A program made the translations under genes and the position numbers. Source: a virus. From it: a DNA stretch of 22,584 nucleotides. The notes beneath the pieces were generated by a model. It searched no databases and had not been told where the DNA came from. It was given only the letters and a program-made list of their open reading frames with translations. Below, one piece after another: positions 1,579 to 20,081 of this stretch (positions are counted from its first letter, which is position 1; each line of letters opens with the position of its first letter). The stretch is from IMG/VR virus record IMGVR_UViG_3300036985_005881, positions 1 to 22,584 of that record; one strand, 5' to 3'.

Positions 1579-1889
1579 TTAGCCAGAAGATAATAGAGCA
1601 TCTAAAGAAAAACTGGGGAGAGAAAGCGGACTCTCTCAACTGCTACGCTGAAGTAAAGCTTATTGACTCACTCTCGTCATGGTGCTGCTACATCTTCGCG
1701 ATGGATGAGTCTGAGGAGATAATACAATGTTTGATCTATAGCAATATGTTTGGGGCTGTGATAGAAACGCAACGCATGGACTATATATTGTTCATGTACA
1801 ACAAAAACGGCGAACATCCCTGGATAGATCGTGAGTATCGTCGGATGAAAGTTACAGAATTACTAAAGAGGCTAAGGCATGACACCTGA
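1575..1889 (+). CDS. Hypothetical protein, 104 aa (DUF2958-like?)
   Basis: The protein has an N-terminal helix and a central beta-rich segment (CYAEVKLIDSLSSWCCYIFA) containing several aromatic residues. The pattern loosely resembles DUF2958-type proteins of mobile elements, which are of unknown function. That resemblance is a weak recollection. The gene is coupled at both ends: ATGA overlap with the upstream gene, and overlap of its last codons with the HTH gene starting at 1879. No catalytic residues can be identified. Confidence 0.72.
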   Translation: MISQKIIEHLKKNWGEKADSLNCYAEVKLIDSLSSWCCYIFAMDESEEIIQCLIYSNMFGAVIETQRMDYILFMYNKNGEHPWIDREYRRMKVTELLKRLRHDT

Positions 1890-2088
1890 AGAAATCCAAA
1901 AACTACGACATATGTTGGGCGTATCACAAGAGAAGTTTGCTCAACTGATCGGAACAACAGTAGTCACTATCAACCGCTGGGAGAATGGGAAAACAATCCC
2001 ATCTCGATTGTATACCAGAGAACTTAACGAACTAAGGAGTACCCATGCATCATACCTATGTCGACGAAAAAAGCTTAAAAAGTCTTGA
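1879..2088 (+). CDS. Xre/HTH_3-type DNA-binding protein, 69 aa
   Basis: A complete helix-turn-helix of the Cro/CI-Xre family occupies residues 5-42: the first helix leads into VSQEKFAQLIG (recognition scaffold), then TTVVTINRWENGKTIPS, which is the classical helix 3-4 signature. After the domain there is only a short basic tail, so this is a DNA-binding domain without a dimerisation or peptidase domain. The gene overlaps both neighbours and is in the plus-strand accessory operon, not next to the divergent promoter region at 7210-7661. It could be a regulator of the phage genes or an antitoxin-like protein without a visible toxin partner. The fold is certain; the target is unknown. Confidence 0.88.
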   Translation: MTPEEIQKLRHMLGVSQEKFAQLIGTTVVTINRWENGKTIPSRLYTRELNELRSTHASYLCRRKKLKKS

Positions 2089-4342: not shown

Positions 4343-4861
4343 TTAAAAGCCCCTCTCCTCAAATCTACGGTCTTTCCCTTCAAACACGTAATTTCTTCCA
4401 GAAGCAACTCGACTGAATATTGGGTCTCCAAAGTCTTTGCGAATGCGAGCAGATTCTAGGTTCGTGGTGATAATGGTTGCTAAAACATCTTTCTCGTTCG
4501 TTCGTTTGTCCATGAGGGCGTATAGGAAATCCATGAAGGCAGATGTAGGAACTCTAGTACCAAAATCGTCTAGTACAAAAAATTTAGACTTACACGCTTG
4601 CTTAAGTAGGTTGGATGCATGCCCGTCTGATGCAATCGATTCAGAGAAAAGCATGTTCAAGTCCGCTTGATTAATGAACCAAGCGGTATCATGGTCGTGT
4701 GCTGGCAACTTAAATGTTGCAAGTTGCTCGTATATTTTCATGGCTGCGTAGCTTTTGCCTCTTCCGTTCTTACCAAAAAAAAGCATGAAACCTCGAGGAT
4801 TTAAGTAAAACTCTTTGAGATCTTCAATCACTTGTTCGCTTAACATATTTTTGATTATCAT
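4343..4861 (-). CDS. DnaC/IstB-type AAA+ helicase loader, 172 aa
   Basis: This is an ATPase that would load the replicative helicase at the phage origin. Walker A is GKNGRGKS (residues 30-37), Walker B is FFVLDDFG (about 94-101), sensor 1 is TIITTN (about 129-134), and the arginine-finger region DPIFSRVASG (Arg151) is typical of DnaC-like loaders. It is shorter than E. coli DnaC (245 aa) and lacks the N-terminal helicase-binding domain as a separate block, so it would be an ATPase-core loader. The ATG at 4861 overlaps the stop of the initiator gene by one base (TAATG). Phage initiator-loader pairs adjacent like this resemble lambda O-P or P22 gene pairs in role. Confidence 0.9.
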   Translation of the reverse strand: MIIKNMLSEQVIEDLKEFYLNPRGFMLFFGKNGRGKSYAAMKIYEQLATFKLPAHDHDTAWFINQADLNMLFSESIASDGHASNLLKQACKSKFFVLDDFGTRVPTSAFMDFLYALMDKRTNEKDVLATIITTNLESARIRKDFGDPIFSRVASGRNYVFEGKDRRFEERGF

Positions 4862-5730
4862 TAGAAAATTCTATCCTTCCATTCGTCGACAACATTCCCT
4901 TTTTTGTCTCTCAATCTGCGGTCTACTTCATTAGGATTTTTTGCAGGCGCGGCGTTCATCTTCTTTTCAAGAGTCACAAACTTGTCTCTAAGCTTCTTGG
5001 CTAGATTCCCATTGAGCAAACCTGGGCCATAGAACGGATCTGGCAGAGAAGTGCGAAGGACTGCATAGAGAATTTCAGGATCTCTTTTGTCTATGTTAAG
5101 CATGTTGTGCACTTCTTGGATCAACGGAGTCAGGTTCTTGGGGACGATATAACTCGGGGAATCGTCGACTACGATTTGAAGGAGCTTGTTAGCAACCTCT
5201 CGCACATGAGGCGCAAAGTCTGGTTTTTCTTTTTTAGGTTTAGAACAAGGATTCAAATCCACCTGGGATGCGATAGCAGCCTTTGGTTCCTCGGGAACCT
5301 TTAAGGAGGTATCCTTTTGTATGTTATATTTTGTAGAGTCTTTCTTTTGTGGGTCTACTGAGTAGACTACCCCCTGGTCTACTGAGTAGACTACCCCTGG
5401 TCTATTCAGTAGACTACCCCCCTCTACACAGTAGACATTGATTTCATACATATTGGGGGCGTCATCTCCATCGGTAGTTTTAGATTTGATCTTGTTCAAA
5501 AGCCCTCTTCCTACCAAAGAGTCGACATTTTTGATGATGCCCGACCGGTGTAGACCAGTGATCTTTTCGATTTGTTTGAGAGATATTAAGTCAGAGACCT
5601 TGTGCCATCCGTATGTTTTCCGTGCGATGCACATTAAAACTTTAAATTCAGCAGGGGTTAAAATGCCCATCCAGTAATCAAACAAAACATTGGGTATAGC
5701 CGAGGTATTTGGGATATAGTTATTGCTCAT
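4861..5730 (-). CDS. Phage replication initiator, O/DnaD-like winged-helix protein, 289 aa
   Basis: The N-terminal part (residues 10-97) is the phage replication O-type winged helix: IPNVLFDYW, LTPAEFKVLMCIARKTYGWHK, LISLKQIEKITGLHRS and a following recognition helix and wing. This domain binds origin DNA. A linker of repeated VVYSVD follows (about 112-127), then a long hydrophilic part and a C-terminal helical region that would contact the loader or helicase. The start ATG at 5730 is preceded by AAGGAGGTG. The gene contains an iteron array at 5353-5436 with an AT-rich stretch just downstream, as in lambda O, so it probably encodes its own origin. It overlaps both neighbouring genes. Confidence 0.9.
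   Translation of the reverse strand: MSNNYIPNTSAIPNVLFDYWMGILTPAEFKVLMCIARKTYGWHKVSDLISLKQIEKITGLHRSGIIKNVDSLVGRGLLNKIKSKTTDGDDAPNMYEINVYCVEGGSLLNRPGVVYSVDQGVVYSVDPQKKDSTKYNIQKDTSLKVPEEPKAAIASQVDLNPCSKPKKEKPDFAPHVREVANKLLQIVVDDSPSYIVPKNLTPLIQEVHNMLNIDKRDPEILYAVLRTSLPDPFYGPGLLNGNLAKKLRDKFVTLEKKMNAAPAKNPNEVDRRLRDKKGNVVDEWKDRIF
5306..5350. other. AT-rich stretch next to iterons (candidate unwinding element)
   Basis: This run (cc-tt-tt-gta-tgt-tat-att-ttg style, rich in T on the plus strand) directly abuts the iteron array on its 3' side relative to the initiator gene. That is the order found in lambda ori (iterons, then AT-rich unwinding segment). Function is inferred from position only. Confidence 0.45.
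5353..5436. repeat. Iteron array, candidate replication origin
   Basis: Four direct repeats of a 15-bp unit with starts at 5353, 5377, 5400 and 5422: two copies of GTCTACTGAGTAGAC (each a palindrome), then GTCTATTCAGTAGAC, then CTCTACACAGTAGAC. The first three copies are followed by TACCCC. Spacing is 24, 23 and 22 bases, close to two helical turns. Because the spacing is not a multiple of three, the copies are read in different frames of the initiator gene (once as VYSVD, elsewhere as SLLNR), so the constraint is on DNA. The AT-rich 5306-5350 stretch lies next to it, as in lambda's origin. Confidence 0.8.
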
Positions 5731-6295
5731 TCTTCACCTCCTTGTGTTGCTCCAATACATATTCTTGTTCACTTGTTGGAATCAACAACTCAGGAATCTT
5801 TTCTTTAATCCCCTCTGCACAGTAGACGTTATTTTGAGGAGGTATAGGAGGAGTTGTATTTCTTTTAGTTAAATCTGTTTCAGTAGGGTTCTGTATTAGT
5901 AGGTGCTCCTTACGGGAATTTCCGTAACGGCAATGCTGGAAACTTTTTTTGAATATCTCTTCCTGTTGATCCATTTCTTCTTGCGTGGCTGGGAATTCGA
6001 AAAAGACATATTCCACCCCTGAGGTCTTATATTTACCGTCTTCACCTCTTTCGCTATATTCCAATCTATAAGCATAACCAGCGTCGATTAGCTCTTTCAT
6101 GGCTCCATCTACTGCCTTCAAAGAAAGATTAGTATCCCACAGAGCTTGTTTGTTTAGTTGAACGAACGGATTTTCGCGGTTATGGACGACACGAATAATC
6201 GTGCTTCTCTTATCTTCTGCGTTGACGCATAAATCTCGATTAGTTACAGTTGTTTCGTGCATGTTATTATTATTAGTTACAGTTGTTTCGTGCAT
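5720..6295 (-). CDS. Phage winged-helix replication-associated protein, 191 aa
   Basis: Residues about 30-80 (IIRVVHNRENPFVQLNKQALWD, then NLSLKA and MKELIDAGYAYR) match the helix-turn-helix family common in phage replication modules. In members I recall, LSLKA is followed by a conserved segment of roughly 30 residues (of the type KGLLAYLLSRPDDW) and then by the second helix; here that middle part is missing. The remainder has KYKTSGVEYVFFEFP and a long hydrophilic tail. The start ATG at 6295 has a perfect AAGGAG five to six bases upstream. The first 22 codons contain a 33-base tandem duplication, and a second ATG in the copy (6262) has no RBS. It overlaps the initiator gene by 11 bases, so the two are coexpressed. 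Confidence 0.8.
   Translation of the reverse strand: MHETTVTNNNNMHETTVTNRDLCVNAEDKRSTIIRVVHNRENPFVQLNKQALWDTNLSLKAVDGAMKELIDAGYAYRLEYSERGEDGKYKTSGVEYVFFEFPATQEEMDQQEEIFKKSFQHCRYGNSRKEHLLIQNPTETDLTKRNTTPPIPPQNNVYCAEGIKEKIPELLIPTSEQEYVLEQHKEVKNEQ
5813..5827. repeat. Solitary iteron-like copy
   Basis: CTCTGCACAGTAGAC matches the fourth iteron (CTCTACACAGTAGAC) at 14 of 15 bases. It lies in the 3' part of the preceding winged-helix gene, about 380 bases from the array, and could be an additional initiator-binding or handcuffing site. Confidence 0.55.
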
Positions 6296-6297
6296 GT
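6239..6297 (-). repeat. 33-bp tandem duplication at the gene start
   Basis: The 26-base segment at 6239-6264 is repeated at 6272-6297 with a seven-base spacer (tattatt), a period of 33 bases. It duplicates the start codon and the residues MHETTVTN, keeping the frame. Confidence 0.9.
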
Positions 6298-6335
6298 GAC
6301 TCCTTTAATAGTTACAAGTTTTTGATATATATTGT

Positions 6336-6366
6336 AATGCCCTACCTACCTGTGTAGTGGGGCATT
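6336..6366. other. Intergenic hairpin between zinc-ribbon gene and winged-helix gene
   Basis: AATGCCC (6336-6342) pairs with GGGCATT (6360-6366), with an inner CTAC-GTAG stem (6346-6349 and 6354-6357). It starts just after the stop of the upstream gene on the minus strand. No T run follows in either direction strong enough for a clear intrinsic terminator, so it may attenuate, terminate weakly, or protect mRNA. A TATAT-rich stretch (6325-6332) next to it could hold a minus-strand promoter, not convincingly. Confidence 0.4.
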
Positions 6367-6370
6367 CTTT

Positions 6371-6679
6371 CTAGCCTTCGTTCTTACGTTTCCTTGAGTA
6401 TTCTTTGTAGTAATCAGGGTATTTTTTCTTAAACTTGCGTCGATATTCTGCAAATTTTTCTTTGTTCTTTGCATAGTACTCCACCATGTAAGAGCGTTTC
6501 TCATCATCGTCAACGAAACGGTGCATCCAAGACTTGACACGCTTTTGGTAGTCCACATTTTTCTTGATAGTGCACGCCTTACATTCGCTTCGTACTTTTC
6601 CTTGGGAGGAATAGAAGTCTTTTATGGGATCTTTAATACCGTGGCACTTACTACATATCTTGCAGTCAGAATTACACAT
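6371..6679 (-). CDS. Zinc-ribbon-type small phage protein, 102 aa
   Basis: The N-terminal part has Cys6, Cys9 and Cys12 close together (CKICSKC), followed by a conserved-looking IKDPIKDFYSSQGKVRSE and Cys33/Cys36 (CKAC). This four-cysteine pattern with an intervening phenylalanine-tyrosine is the one seen in zinc-ribbon heads of phage endonuclease VII and HNH-like proteins. No HNH nuclease motif follows, only a strongly basic, Tyr-rich repeat tail (YYKEY, KRKN). It would bind nucleic acid through a zinc site, but activity is unknown. The start at 6679 is preceded by GGAGG; a GTG-led extension to 6709 exists without an RBS. It overlaps the next gene upstream by eight bases. Confidence 0.78.
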   Translation of the reverse strand: MCNSDCKICSKCHGIKDPIKDFYSSQGKVRSECKACTIKKNVDYQKRVKSWMHRFVDDDEKRSYMVEYYAKNKEKFAEYRRKFKKKYPDYYKEYSRKRKNEG

Positions 6680-6953
6680 CACAATTACCTCCACAGAAGA
6701 ACGCGCCAAGTCCGTCTTGTTCCATTCCGTTAACTCTGAATATGATTAGATCCGAAGTTTCTGTAGTGGTGATGAATCCTAATGTCTCCAACAGATGAAA
6801 GTATGGGTTGTCGTCTGTTCGTAAGCCAAATATATTGCATGTGATTTGAACTTCGCATAGATCTAGCCATAGCTTAGATGCATTCGTGCTTCTCTTAGCT
6901 AACAACGTAAAACATCCATCACAGCAAATTCCAGGCTTACTCATTTCCATCAT
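6672..6953 (-). CDS. Hypothetical phage protein with CxxC motif, 93 aa
   Basis: A short Cys-containing N-terminus (GICCDGC) precedes a region with two likely helices and alternating strands (SKLWLDLCEVQITCNIFGL, then LETLGFITTTETSDLIIFRV), an arrangement suggestive of a small winged-helix fold. The start is either ATG at 6953 or ATG at 6944 (MSKPG). The second overlaps the upstream stop and has GGA directly before it. The gene is part of the leftward early operon; function unknown. Confidence 0.68.
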   Translation of the reverse strand: MMEMSKPGICCDGCFTLLAKRSTNASKLWLDLCEVQITCNIFGLRTDDNPYFHLLETLGFITTTETSDLIIFRVNGMEQDGLGAFFCGGNCDV

Positions 6954-7209
6954 TTGCCGCCAGTGTCACAGAGATACCCTTGCCGAATGGATGCCATTCC
7001 AGCAAGTTCTCTAGTGCTAATTTTTTGATATGATTAACGAATTTTGTCCAGCCCTCGGACATATCTATCTCTACCTCAGAGCGGCTAAAGACGACTGTTC
7101 CGTGCTCATCGGCTCTATTCATGCAATGAAGATAAGCCGACATAGATTGAGGGCAATGTCGAGAGATCCTTTCAAGAATCTCCTGTGTGGTGATCGAGTA
7201 CAAATCCAT
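6937..7209 (-). CDS. First gene of the leftward operon, hypothetical 90 aa
   Basis: The start at 7209 is picked by AAAGGA six bases upstream; a longer frame to 7272 lacks an RBS. The product has an N-terminal helix (SITTQEILERISRHC), an aromatic-rich middle and ends with basic and beta-type residues (ENLLEWHPFGKGISVTL) consistent with a winged-helix-like small DNA-binding protein (inference). It is the first product made from the leftward promoter described at 7382-7410, with a leader of about 165 bases that begins with a strong hairpin. Its stop overlaps the next start. Confidence 0.7.
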   Translation of the reverse strand: MDLYSITTQEILERISRHCPQSMSAYLHCMNRADEHGTVVFSRSEVEIDMSEGWTKFVNHIKKLALENLLEWHPFGKGISVTLAANDGNE

Positions 7210-7341
7210 TTTTTCCTTTAAAAGAAACTTTACTGTGGATTTATTCTCACTAACCAGGGTATGATATCCCAACCTTGTTGTTGTTTTCTCATGGTTCGAC
7301 TACGTCTAATAGTCGTTTCTGTTTTGCGAGAAATAAATCTT

Positions 7342-7375
7342 AGGAACTCTCGGGGTTTAATCCTCGGGAGTTCTT
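7342..7375 (-). other. 5' stem-loop of the leftward transcript
   Basis: A 14-bp stem with three G-T wobbles (7342-7355 with 7362-7375) and a TTTAAT loop. The transcription start predicted from the -10 (7382-7387) falls at about 7375, so the transcript would open with this hairpin. There is no T run after it, so it is not a simple terminator. It could stabilise the 5' end. Confidence 0.6.
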
Positions 7376-7389
7376 ACTTTGAAAGTAAG
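7373..7389. promoter_or_regulatory. Palindromic operator over the leftward -10
   Basis: CTTACTTTGAAAGTAAG is a perfect 17-bp palindrome with a central G. It covers the -10 element of the leftward promoter (7382-7387), a classical position for repression. A related half-site CTTACTTT occurs again at 7448-7455. Confidence 0.65.
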
Positions 7390-7410
7390 TTTTGTTTGCT
7401 TGTTTGTCAA
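7382..7410 (-). promoter_or_regulatory. Leftward early promoter (sigma70-like)
   Basis: The -35 is a perfect TTGACA (7410-7405 on the minus strand), then a 17-base spacer and TACTTT as -10 (7387-7382). The predicted start is about 7375. It would drive the replication operon that begins with the gene at 7209. The -10 is overlapped by the palindrome at 7373-7389. Confidence 0.65.
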
Positions 7411-7523
7411 TCCTTTTCTATACCTAAATATATACGTCAAAAGCTCACTTACTTTTGCAACCCTAGTACAAATAGCCGCTTCTAAAACGTTAAACACGAT
7501 TTAACTCCAAAATTCAAAAAAAC

Positions 7524-7552
7524 TTGTCTTAGTAAATTATTTACTTTACTGT
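7524..7552 (+). promoter_or_regulatory. Rightward promoter with operator in the spacer
   Basis: TTGTCT (7524-7529), a 17-base spacer and TACTGT (7547-7552). The spacer contains a perfect palindrome, AGTAAATTATTTACT (7531-7545), which shares the TTACT half-site with the operator at 7373-7389 in inverted arrangement. It points toward the exonuclease-RecT operon starting at 7662. The -10 match is modest. Confidence 0.5.
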
Positions 7553-7577
7553 TATGTTAAAAAAATTAATTAACAAA

Positions 7578-7627
7578 GCAGACACTGTGAAGGATTATTT
7601 TTAATAACTCTTCTAGCACTTGTCTGC
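7578..7627. repeat. Long inverted repeat upstream of the exonuclease gene
   Basis: GCAGACA (7578-7584) and TGTCTGC (7621-7627) are exact inverted arms around 36 bases, with an inner TTATT/AATAA pair. This lies in the untranslated leader of the rightward transcript and may fold as a hairpin or bind a regulator. Function unknown. Confidence 0.5.
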
Positions 7628-7661
7628 GCCAAATAGTAACCACCAAAACAAACTTTAATCC

Positions 7662-8210
7662 ATGAATGAGAAAAACGCTAGAGAAAGTTATACACGAGTG
7701 ACAACGGTCCTCTACCCCTTCTCGGGGCTAGAAAAAATAAATTCGGATGTTCTTGCTCATGCAGCTGATCGAGGTACTAGGGTTCACAAGATCTGTGAGG
7801 GCATCATGGAAGGACTAGGAGAATTGGGCGTAGACGATGAGACCACAGGATACGTAGAGAGCTTTAAAAAGTGGTGGGAAAAGGGTCACGAAGTCATAAT
7901 GATGGAACAGCGATTCTGGGACGACGAACTTAAAATAACAGGTCAAGTGGATCTAATCATACGCATCCCCGAGGGTTTGGCAATTGTGGATCTTAAGACC
8001 TCAAGCAAACCGTCACCTACATGGGAAGGTCAAGGGTCAGCTTATGCTTACCTGGCCAAGAAATCCGGCCATGATATTCAAAAAATCTATTTCTTACACC
8101 TCAACAAATCTGGAAAAGAAGCGAAGGTGCATGAGTACCCCGTTGATGATAGTTTTTTTTTCGCTATTTACAGAGTGTGGGTGCATTTCTTCCGAGGCTC
8201 CCATAGATGA
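7662..8210 (+). CDS. PD-(D/E)XK nuclease, Cas4/RecB-like phage exonuclease, 182 aa
   Basis: The nuclease motifs are in order: RGTRVHKICEGI (His42, Glu46), Glu82, GQVDLII (Asp97), IVDLKTS (Asp110 and Lys112 of the D-x-K core), and QGSAYAYL (Gln124, the QxxxY-type motif). This combination is the RecB/Cas4-type exonuclease fold that phages use to resect DNA ends in partnership with an annealing protein. A RecT gene is directly downstream, matching the exonuclease-annealer pairing of lambda Exo-Bet or RecE-RecT. The start ATG at 7662 has no strong RBS. The stop overlaps the next tiny gene as ATGA at 8207-8210. A poly-T run at 8152-8161 lies near the C-terminus, but the frame stays intact. Confidence 0.85.
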   Translation: MNEKNARESYTRVTTVLYPFSGLEKINSDVLAHAADRGTRVHKICEGIMEGLGELGVDDETTGYVESFKKWWEKGHEVIMMEQRFWDDELKITGQVDLIIRIPEGLAIVDLKTSSKPSPTWEGQGSAYAYLAKKSGHDIQKIYFLHLNKSGKEAKVHEYPVDDSFFFAIYRVWVHFFRGSHR

Positions 8211-8352
8211 AAGAGCAACAGATCGACACCCTAACAGATAATATGCAGAAAAAATAAGAGGCCCATCGCCATTAAAACGAAAGTATGTTAGAGAGGATTA
8301 TGGGCAATATATCAGAGATGTTGAGCAAAAATTCACTAAGGATACAAAATGA
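8207..8352 (+). pseudogene. Tiny gene between exonuclease and RecT, split by a frameshift
   Basis: It begins at ATG 8207 (ATGA overlap with the exonuclease stop) and reads MKEQQIDTLTDNMQKK then TAA (8255-8257). A shift of -1 at the six-A run (8249-8254) continues in frame as KIRGPSPLKRKYVREDYG and on to a TGA at 8350-8352, which overlaps the RecT start as ATGA. Both ends are therefore coupled as in a real operon member, which strongly suggests a 47-48-residue protein whose frame is broken by one missing A, or read by -1 programmed slippage on AAAAAA before the stop. Nothing else of the product is recognised; it is basic in its second half. A sequencing error is also possible. Confidence 0.55.
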
Positions 8353-9140
8353 TTAATAACTTACCAGATCTCAAAAAACATGCACCTATAAGCGTTCCAA
8401 ACGAACATGAGATGATGGTATATCATACCATGGCCGAACAGGCTGTATCAAGCAAAATGTACAGAGGTATCGGAGAGAAGGCGGGCGTAATGATGATCAT
8501 GCTTTCTGCAAGGGAGCTAGGGATTCCTCCAATGCAAGCTCTCAATGGAGGGATTAACATCATTAATGGCAAGGCTGAGATCTCAGCTCGCATGATGAGT
8601 GCGCTCATTAGAAAGCATGGCCACGAGATCAAGATCAAGCAAATCTCCGATATCTCCTGTACCCTCATTGGCAAAAGATCCGACACGGGACAAGAGGAGG
8701 AGTCTTCATTCACCCTTGCCGATGCTGAGAAAGCAGGCCTAGTCAAAACAGGTGGTGGATGGGTGAAATGGCCAAAAGATATGTGCTTCGCTAGAGCCCT
8801 TTCTAGGCTATCTAGACAGCTTTTCTCGGACGTCATAGGCATTGGGTACGTTGAAGGTGAGATAAGTGCTTCTGAGGCCGAAATAAGCCTTCCTGAAGAT
8901 CTGCCCATGACAGTGACCAGTAACATAGTCATAGACGAAATGGATCTCCAAACTCTGTTAAGCAAATTTGACAAAGAAGATCGCTTTTTGGTTATGGAAT
9001 ACGTTAAAGTGGTGATGAAACACTTTGGTTGGTCACAAGCTCAGTGTGTAAAGAAATTCCTTGAAGAGAAAGGCATAGTTGATAAGTTTAGCAAGTGGGA
9101 GAATAAGAAGAAGATTGCATCTATTGAGGAAACAAAATGA
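8349..9140 (+). CDS. recT: RecT-family single-strand annealing protein, 263 aa
   Basis: RecT-type proteins anneal complementary single strands during phage recombination. The N-terminal region (LSARELGIPPMQALNGGINIINGKAEISAR, about 53-82) and the second block (LADAEKAGLVKTGGGWVKWPKDMCFARALSR, about 123-153) match the conserved RecT core, including the WxKWP-type motif before the ARALS arginine segment. It lies directly behind the PD-(D/E)XK exonuclease, which is the usual genomic pairing. The ATG at 8349 is preceded by AAGGA and overlaps the preceding stop. The C-terminal end is Lys-rich and hydrophilic. Length is normal for the family. The stop overlaps the next gene as ATGA. Confidence 0.85.
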   Translation: MINNLPDLKKHAPISVPNEHEMMVYHTMAEQAVSSKMYRGIGEKAGVMMIMLSARELGIPPMQALNGGINIINGKAEISARMMSALIRKHGHEIKIKQISDISCTLIGKRSDTGQEEESSFTLADAEKAGLVKTGGGWVKWPKDMCFARALSRLSRQLFSDVIGIGYVEGEISASEAEISLPEDLPMTVTSNIVIDEMDLQTLLSKFDKEDRFLVMEYVKVVMKHFGWSQAQCVKKFLEEKGIVDKFSKWENKKKIASIEETK

Positions 9141-19422: not shown

Positions 19423-20081
19423 TATTGGATTCCTCTAGTAGTAGGAGTAGATTGTTTACTAAAATAGTCCTTAAACTCTTTTTTCATCTCCGGAGTGATA
19501 GAGTTTAAAATTGATGAGATGTTAAACGGCTTTTCGCCTATGTCGTAATCAAATGTTGTACGATTCTGTAGGTTGTCAATAGCAGCTCTTTTTGCGCTTC
19601 TAGCGTCGGATTGCTGACCATATTGAAATCGTGTTCTTTCAGCGTCTAGGTTCTCTTGCACATCTCGTGTGAGCTTAGAAATTGCATCTCCTGCGTAGGA
19701 GCTATTCATTAGACCTTGAGATCGGAATTGACCCGTGACTCCAGGGATTGCTTGCTCTTTCAAATCTCTATAGGCTTTTCTAGATACTGTCTGATCGAAT
19801 ACAGCATTCGCCGCTTCAGGATCGTAGTTGTAAAGATCGGCTAATGGACCTTGACCCAAGACAGCTTGATGTTGCTGTTCGTTCAGCTGTTTCTGTCTCT
19901 TGTCGAAGGTTGAGATCTTCTTCTTTTTCTTCCTATTTCCAAATAAACCTGCTATCCCTCCGAATAGGCCACCAACACCGGCTCCGATTGCTGTTCCTAT
20001 GCCAGGGATCACTGATCCTAGGGAAGCGCCTGTAGCTGCACCACCTAGGGCTCCTGATGCTGCACCTGTAAAATTTGCCAT
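19422..20081 (-). CDS. Gly-zipper ejection protein, 219 aa
   Basis: The first 50 residues are glycine-zipper sequence (GALGGAATGASLG, then GTAIGAGVGGLFGGIAGLFG), followed by a stop-transfer-like RKKKKK cluster and a hydrophilic Gln/Arg-rich part. Such an N-terminus is typical of phage proteins that form a pore on DNA injection (as in P22 gp7-type ejection proteins). The ATG at 20081 has AAAGGACGG upstream. It lies just downstream of the nozzle gene. Confidence 0.82.
   Translation of the reverse strand: MANFTGAASGALGGAATGASLGSVIPGIGTAIGAGVGGLFGGIAGLFGNRKKKKKISTFDKRQKQLNEQQHQAVLGQGPLADLYNYDPEAANAVFDQTVSRKAYRDLKEQAIPGVTGQFRSQGLMNSSYAGDAISKLTRDVQENLDAERTRFQYGQQSDARSAKRAAIDNLQNRTTFDYDIGEKPFNISSILNSITPEMKKEFKDYFSKQSTPTTRGIQ

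Follow-up and report, generated by a model that had tools for sequence, protein, structure and literature searches.

In the leaders of plasmid rep genes, an antisense RNA that binds the leader allows a second structure to form, which is a stem at the translation start in pSK41 and a terminator in pT181 and pIP501 (PMC5703833). The phage locus described here resembles these systems in the untranslated leader of a replication gene, the putative opposing RNA region with its terminator, and a second stem that can form where translation starts (PMC5703833). A long, untranslated and structured leader was found before a gene of the replication operon, together with a predicted alternative fold that would block the start; regarding the opposing RNA, a terminator is present on the opposite strand, and its promoter is represented by just a −10-like box. 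The differences lie in the phage lineage, in the first gene, which codes for a predicted 90-aa winged-helix protein and not for a plasmid Rep, and in the opposing RNA, which is putative here. Besides, the sequences are unrelated, and the element is longer than RNAI (83–87 nt).

Among phages, the lambda OOP RNA is antisense to cII and has been reported to be without effect on the stability of the O-P mRNA (PMC3985674). It is likewise an opposing RNA of a phage replication region (PMC3985674); however, the OOP region has no leader switch at the start of the replication operon. In the RNA-based prophage origins of mycobacteriophages (RedRock, Alma and others), which are parABS phages without RepA, the RNA is required for replication itself (PMC7157519). 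Those origins also link phage replication to a non-coding RNA (PMC7157519), but an O-like initiator is present here and ParA occurs in just two of 14 relatives. The divergent early promoters between replication and recombination genes recall lambda PL and PR; however, the operators proposed here are unconserved, no CI/Cro-type gene adjoins the promoters, the adjoining 90-aa protein being predicted only as winged-helix, and a structured leader and a terminator are found instead.

The locus, its lineage and the divergent promoters

The window, which is the whole stretch of DNA that was analysed, is an entire IMG/VR virus record of 22,584 bases. Its leftward operon carries genes for a DnaC-like loader (4343–4861) and Phage_rep_O (4861–5730), and its rightward operon those for a PD-(D/E)XK exonuclease (7662–8210) and a RecT-like protein (8349–9140), with an intergenic region of 452 bp between both operons. 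The relatives used for comparison are metagenomic contigs. One close relative, L007 (40.5 kb), encodes a P22-type portal; its terminase reaches at most about 45% identity to the best cultured phages. Cultured phages gave only distant relatives of the exonuclease, no DNA match to the window and, like plasmids, no relative of the 90-aa protein. The host look-up gave a single genome match, a contig in a Bacteroidales MAG, which was not counted as host evidence. A serine recombinase of 238–286 aa occurs in all 14 relative records, and a ParA-like protein in two. An extrachromosomal lifestyle is possible for the lineage, the general phage-plasmid reading finding ParA in just those two records. In the phage closest by its exonuclease (L050), genes for an RNA ligase and RtcB adjoin each other at 4748–6968.

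The leftward operon begins with the following gene.

6937–7209, minus strand: first gene of the operon, coding for a 90-aa predicted winged-helix protein; relatives at 14 loci by scan, 22 homologous proteins

AlphaFold2 models its product as helix-helix-strand-helix-helix-strand-strand (pLDDT 76), and this model has weak winged-helix matches (CodY-C/ArsR-like), the best being the CodY C-terminal domain (E 0.003). As judged from the model, the protein is possibly a local regulator and therefore a possible ligand of the leader or of DNA. The first-pass annotation had considered the only HTH regulator in the window (1879–2088) to be distant from the promoters, which looks wrong, as the product of this adjacent gene is itself predicted to be winged-helix.

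Two divergent promoters between the replication and recombination operons had also been proposed, and these are borne out, both promoters being kept in relatives; all the sequences named there are present at their positions.

7405–7410, minus strand: leftward −35, TTGACA; a TTGACA-like box, 16–18 nt and TAnnnT at the homologous place in 18 of 22 sequences
7382–7387, minus strand: leftward −10, TACTTT, 17 nt from the −35; TTACTTTG or a close variant kept in relatives
7524–7552, plus strand: rightward promoter of the exonuclease/RecT operon, TTGTCT (7524–7529), 17 nt, TACTGT (7547–7552); from conservation
7556–7572, plus strand: conserved 5' end of the rightward transcript (relatives: GTTAAAATAAAnATTTA); from alignment

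The rightward promoter appears as TTGTC[AT], 17 or 18 nt, TA[CG]nnT in 17 of 24 sequences, and in 21 of them under a looser pattern; the matches for both promoters are to a loose consensus, so that the totals are surer than the individual cases. Downstream of it, GTTAAAATAAAnATTTA or a close variant is found in nine aligned sequences. A simple sigma-70 scan listed neither promoter because their −10 hexamers fit TATAAT poorly, and the conservation in relatives supports both despite that scan.

Regarding the rightward side, an inverted repeat GCAGACA/TGTCTGC (7578–7584 and 7621–7627) lies in the leader, and GAGTTA/TAACTC pairs are present in that of L002 and L008, so structure is possible in the rightward leader as well. 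Between the repeat arms, GTGAAGGATTATTTTTAA (7588–7605) looks like the remnant of an ORF of 61–66 aa with a hydrophobic stretch, which L004, L005 and L007 carry between the promoter and the exonuclease gene. A AAACAAACTTTAC-type box at 7645–7657 directly precedes the exonuclease start codon, is kept in relatives without a Shine-Dalgarno sequence and resembles a box at 7220–7232; that the AAACTTTAC box preceding the exonuclease pairs with the leader was considered and rejected, as no covariation was seen by inspection. In L003, L005, L006 and L007 a leftward ORF of 106–126 aa separates the element from the rightward promoter; it is absent from the window, L002, L008 and L009.

Structure of the leader and its predicted pairing at the start codon

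The conserved feature at 7194–7380 is very probably a structured RNA leader, as read from its sequence comparison. The leader and its terminator hairpin (7237–7373) were absent from the first-pass annotation. The parts are as follows.

7328–7339, minus strand: arm 1 of the closing stem P1, the 5' arm in the leftward leader RNA; from P1 permutations, the window P1 covarying with L003, L007 and L036
7298–7314, minus strand: hairpin internal to P1, predicted on both strands
7257–7270, minus strand: possible second hairpin internal to P1 (GGGTATGATATCCC), an inverted repeat whose position fits the second hairpin of L003 and L007
7237–7248, minus strand: arm 2 of P1, the switch strand, able to pair with either arm 1 or the start-codon region
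7194–7219, minus strand: Shine-Dalgarno AAAGGA (7214–7219) and start region, with ATG at 7207–7209, which arm 2 can sequester
7344–7380, plus strand: intrinsic-terminator hairpin GAACTCTCGGGG-TTTAAT-CCTCGGGAGTTC, its T-tract degenerate in the window; a T-run follows the hairpin in most relatives
7227–7236, plus strand: conserved box ACTTTACTGT next to P1 on its outer side, candidate −10 of an opposing RNA, without a −35; from column counts in 17 elements

A comparable segment precedes the 90-aa gene in 22 distinct sequences (the window and 21 relatives), with protein identity down to 32%. Most elements have the long closing stem P1 around two inner hairpins, followed by a G+C-rich hairpin whose T-run is on the strand opposite to that of the operon. 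Within the element the sequence diverges strongly among relatives and the structure persists, a pattern that would fit antisense control rather than a metabolite aptamer. In alignment-free permutation tests, which count related genomes as independent, the P1 arms of the 22 elements reached −18.6 kcal/mol with their own partner vs −7.8 when swapped between genomes, a difference attained by none of 10,000 permutations. The element bodies also fold better than their shuffles (mean z of −4.7 on the plus and −5.8 on the minus strand), falling below −2 in 19 and 20 of the 22, respectively. An alignment of four sequences including the window has eight of 23 pairs changed on both sides, in the P1 region. 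When only strict Watson-Crick arms were allowed, 14 of the 22 elements beat all 40 shuffles, the window not being among them, and its closing inverted repeat is equalled by seven of 40 shuffles; the copy in the window belongs with the weaker ones. The fold departs from the simple form in L015, L024–L026 and L034. Tandem ATGGACACATGGACAA-like repeats are inserted in the element of L026, between P1 and the terminator. Rfam covariance models, including RNAI, CopA and pRNA, gave nothing above the gathering cut-off in the window and eight loci, and permissive searches gave just sub-threshold matches to unrelated families.

Arm 2 complements both arm 1 and the start codon, thus implying two exclusive folds, and a start-codon switch in the leader is probable on this pairing evidence. 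When arm 2 was paired with the start region of its own gene, the value was −9.98, compared to −7.97 after swapping (2 of 10,000 permutations), and with the codon region alone (+1 to +16) it was −7.41 compared to −5.83 (3 of 10,000). This complementarity is limited to the arm-2 20-mer, other parts of the body showing nothing comparable, and the reversed, reverse-complement and downstream-ORF controls were mostly flat. The signal is still found in a subset of 16 genomes without the closest relatives (16 of 10,000). Among three controls with shuffled arms, one was mildly low (126 of 2,000), and composition may therefore contribute slightly. Blocking arm 1 in silico lowered the mean accessibility of the start codon from 0.38 to 0.20 (p = 0.0025). 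The leader of the window is predicted to be mostly closed already, and in several relatives the Shine-Dalgarno region itself lies within a small hairpin.

Both strands carry signs of RNA. In the terminator hairpin, pairs that read G-U on one strand only (A-C on its complement) have the G-U on the plus strand in 12 cases vs one on the minus strand (p = 0.003), and the T-run is also on the plus strand; in the body of the element the corresponding counts, 10 vs 5, are insignificant. A-richness among unpaired bases marks the leader strand of 20 out of the 21 informative elements (p = 2e-5) and could also stem from general mRNA composition. The simplest reading would be that both strands are transcribed, giving a leftward mRNA leader and an opposing RNA that stops at the T-run. 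The box AACTTTACTCT, immediately outside P1, is −10-like and no −35 accompanies it, so the opposing promoter is conjectural; a 10-mer identical to ACTTTACTGT is found in the rightward promoter. An RNA starting at the usual distance from the candidate −10 would lack the first bases of P1. YUNR-like UUGG loops, which are typical of antisense systems, are not enriched in the elements, and no conserved seed or loop for an opposite-strand RNA was seen in the relatives.

Other readings of the region

The two promoters had been read as lambda-like PL and PR, with palindromic operators for one repressor sharing TTACT half-sites.

7373–7389, no strand assigned: reported operator, the 17-bp palindrome CTTACTTT-G-AAAGTAAG over the leftward −10, read here as a −10 box and a T-tract variant
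7531–7545, no strand assigned: 15-bp palindrome AGTAAATTATTTACT in the rightward spacer, unconserved

Near-perfect palindromes do lie at both promoters of the window, the 17-bp one being locally rare and that of the rightward spacer locally unusual (P = 0.006), and weak palindromes occur in the spacers of L008, L039 and L042. A palindrome with arms of at least 8 is modestly unusual, 8% of shuffles made from the 452-bp intergenic region containing one. The three copies of CTTACTTT in the window, a lone one being at 7448–7455, are ordinary, as 1.4 are expected and 17 of 100 shuffles reach three. Operators, however, would retain their dyad symmetry in relatives, and relative to shuffled sequence this symmetry is absent from 21 rightward spacers (Fisher p 0.62) and 18 leftward promoters (Fisher p 0.70, or 0.98 without the window), so the operators proposed at both promoters are unsupported. 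At the homologous place in L003 and L007, the left half of the 17-bp palindrome is the T-run of the terminator (CTTTTTTCGTTC in L003, GTTTTTTTTATGC in L007) and the right half (AAAGTAAG) complements the −10 box, as it does in the window. The window palindrome thus combines a −10 box with the altered T-tract next to it, and what had been taken for shared TTACT half-sites is a conserved leftward −10 box with a T-tract variant specific to the window. Beyond their own second strands, the palindromes have one further copy in the window, a two-mismatch site at 19446–19460; regulon-like copies elsewhere are thus lacking, and a single regulator for both operons is unsupported. Control by palindromic operators is very unlikely in view of these comparisons, and a palindrome beside a promoter can arise as a side effect of a terminator lying next to a −10 box. 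The sole other palindrome of the window with arms of at least 8 and a short centre is TCAACAAGCGCTTGTTGA, a perfect 18-bp one (1160–1177) within the ORF at 957–1211.

Among the readings that keep the structure, a leader acting alone is possible, if somewhat doubtful: a protein (e.g., the 90-aa product), a ligand or temperature would select between P1 and the closed start codon, and the terminator-like hairpin would just shield the operons from stray opposing transcription. This agrees with the alternative pairing, with the better folding and A-rich unpaired bases of the leader strand, with an opposing promoter lacking a −35 and with the small hairpins around the Shine-Dalgarno region in several relatives; however, the sequence has no strongly conserved core that could bind a ligand, and the strand bias of the terminator and its position against P1 would be coincidences. 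The opposite-strand RNA as a stand-alone, trans-acting phage sRNA whose overlap with the leader is incidental seems very improbable, since its seed and loop are unconserved and covariation with the neighbouring start codon implicates the leader strand, although the terminator is on the plus strand and an RNA running from near P1 to it would resemble a compact sRNA. A DNA-level element for replication, such as an origin or cruciform with no RNA role, would account for the long inverted repeats adjoining replication genes and for the strong folding on both strands, but it is scarcely credible next to an upstream promoter, a terminator T-run, G-U wobbles and start-codon pairing, all of which are RNA features.

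Proposed control of the replication operon

Control of the phage replication operon by a plasmid-type sense/antisense leader switch has about an even chance of being correct. Its firm ground lies in the conserved promoters, the covarying structure, the second pairing open to arm 2 and the strand on which the terminator lies. The leftward promoter would produce an mRNA with a 5' leader of about 170 nt that folds into P1 and its inner hairpins, the start codon being open when arm 2 pairs with arm 1 and closed when it pairs with the start-codon region. The plus-strand terminator sits at the start of the leftward transcript, so any RNA reading rightward through the leader would stop at that point and carry the leader's complement. 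By binding the leader, such a countertranscript would occupy arm 1 and free arm 2 to close the start codon, resulting in less translation of the winged-helix protein and of the replication genes behind it. That this antisense RNA is the trigger of the switch might equally be right or wrong; we infer that the RNA is made, as well as its start point and its regulatory role.

In this uncultured lineage with a P22-type portal, the sequence varies between phages and the fold is constant, so that the switch RNA of each phage might recognise only itself and serve as a determinant of immunity or incompatibility, a suggestion that is tentative and on balance unlikely. If the proposed switch is true, an RNA control in the style of plasmid copy number would govern the replication operon of a phage lineage that has no cultured member among the records searched, and its fast-changing paired sequences on a fixed fold would offer a direct test of RNA self-recognition between related phages.
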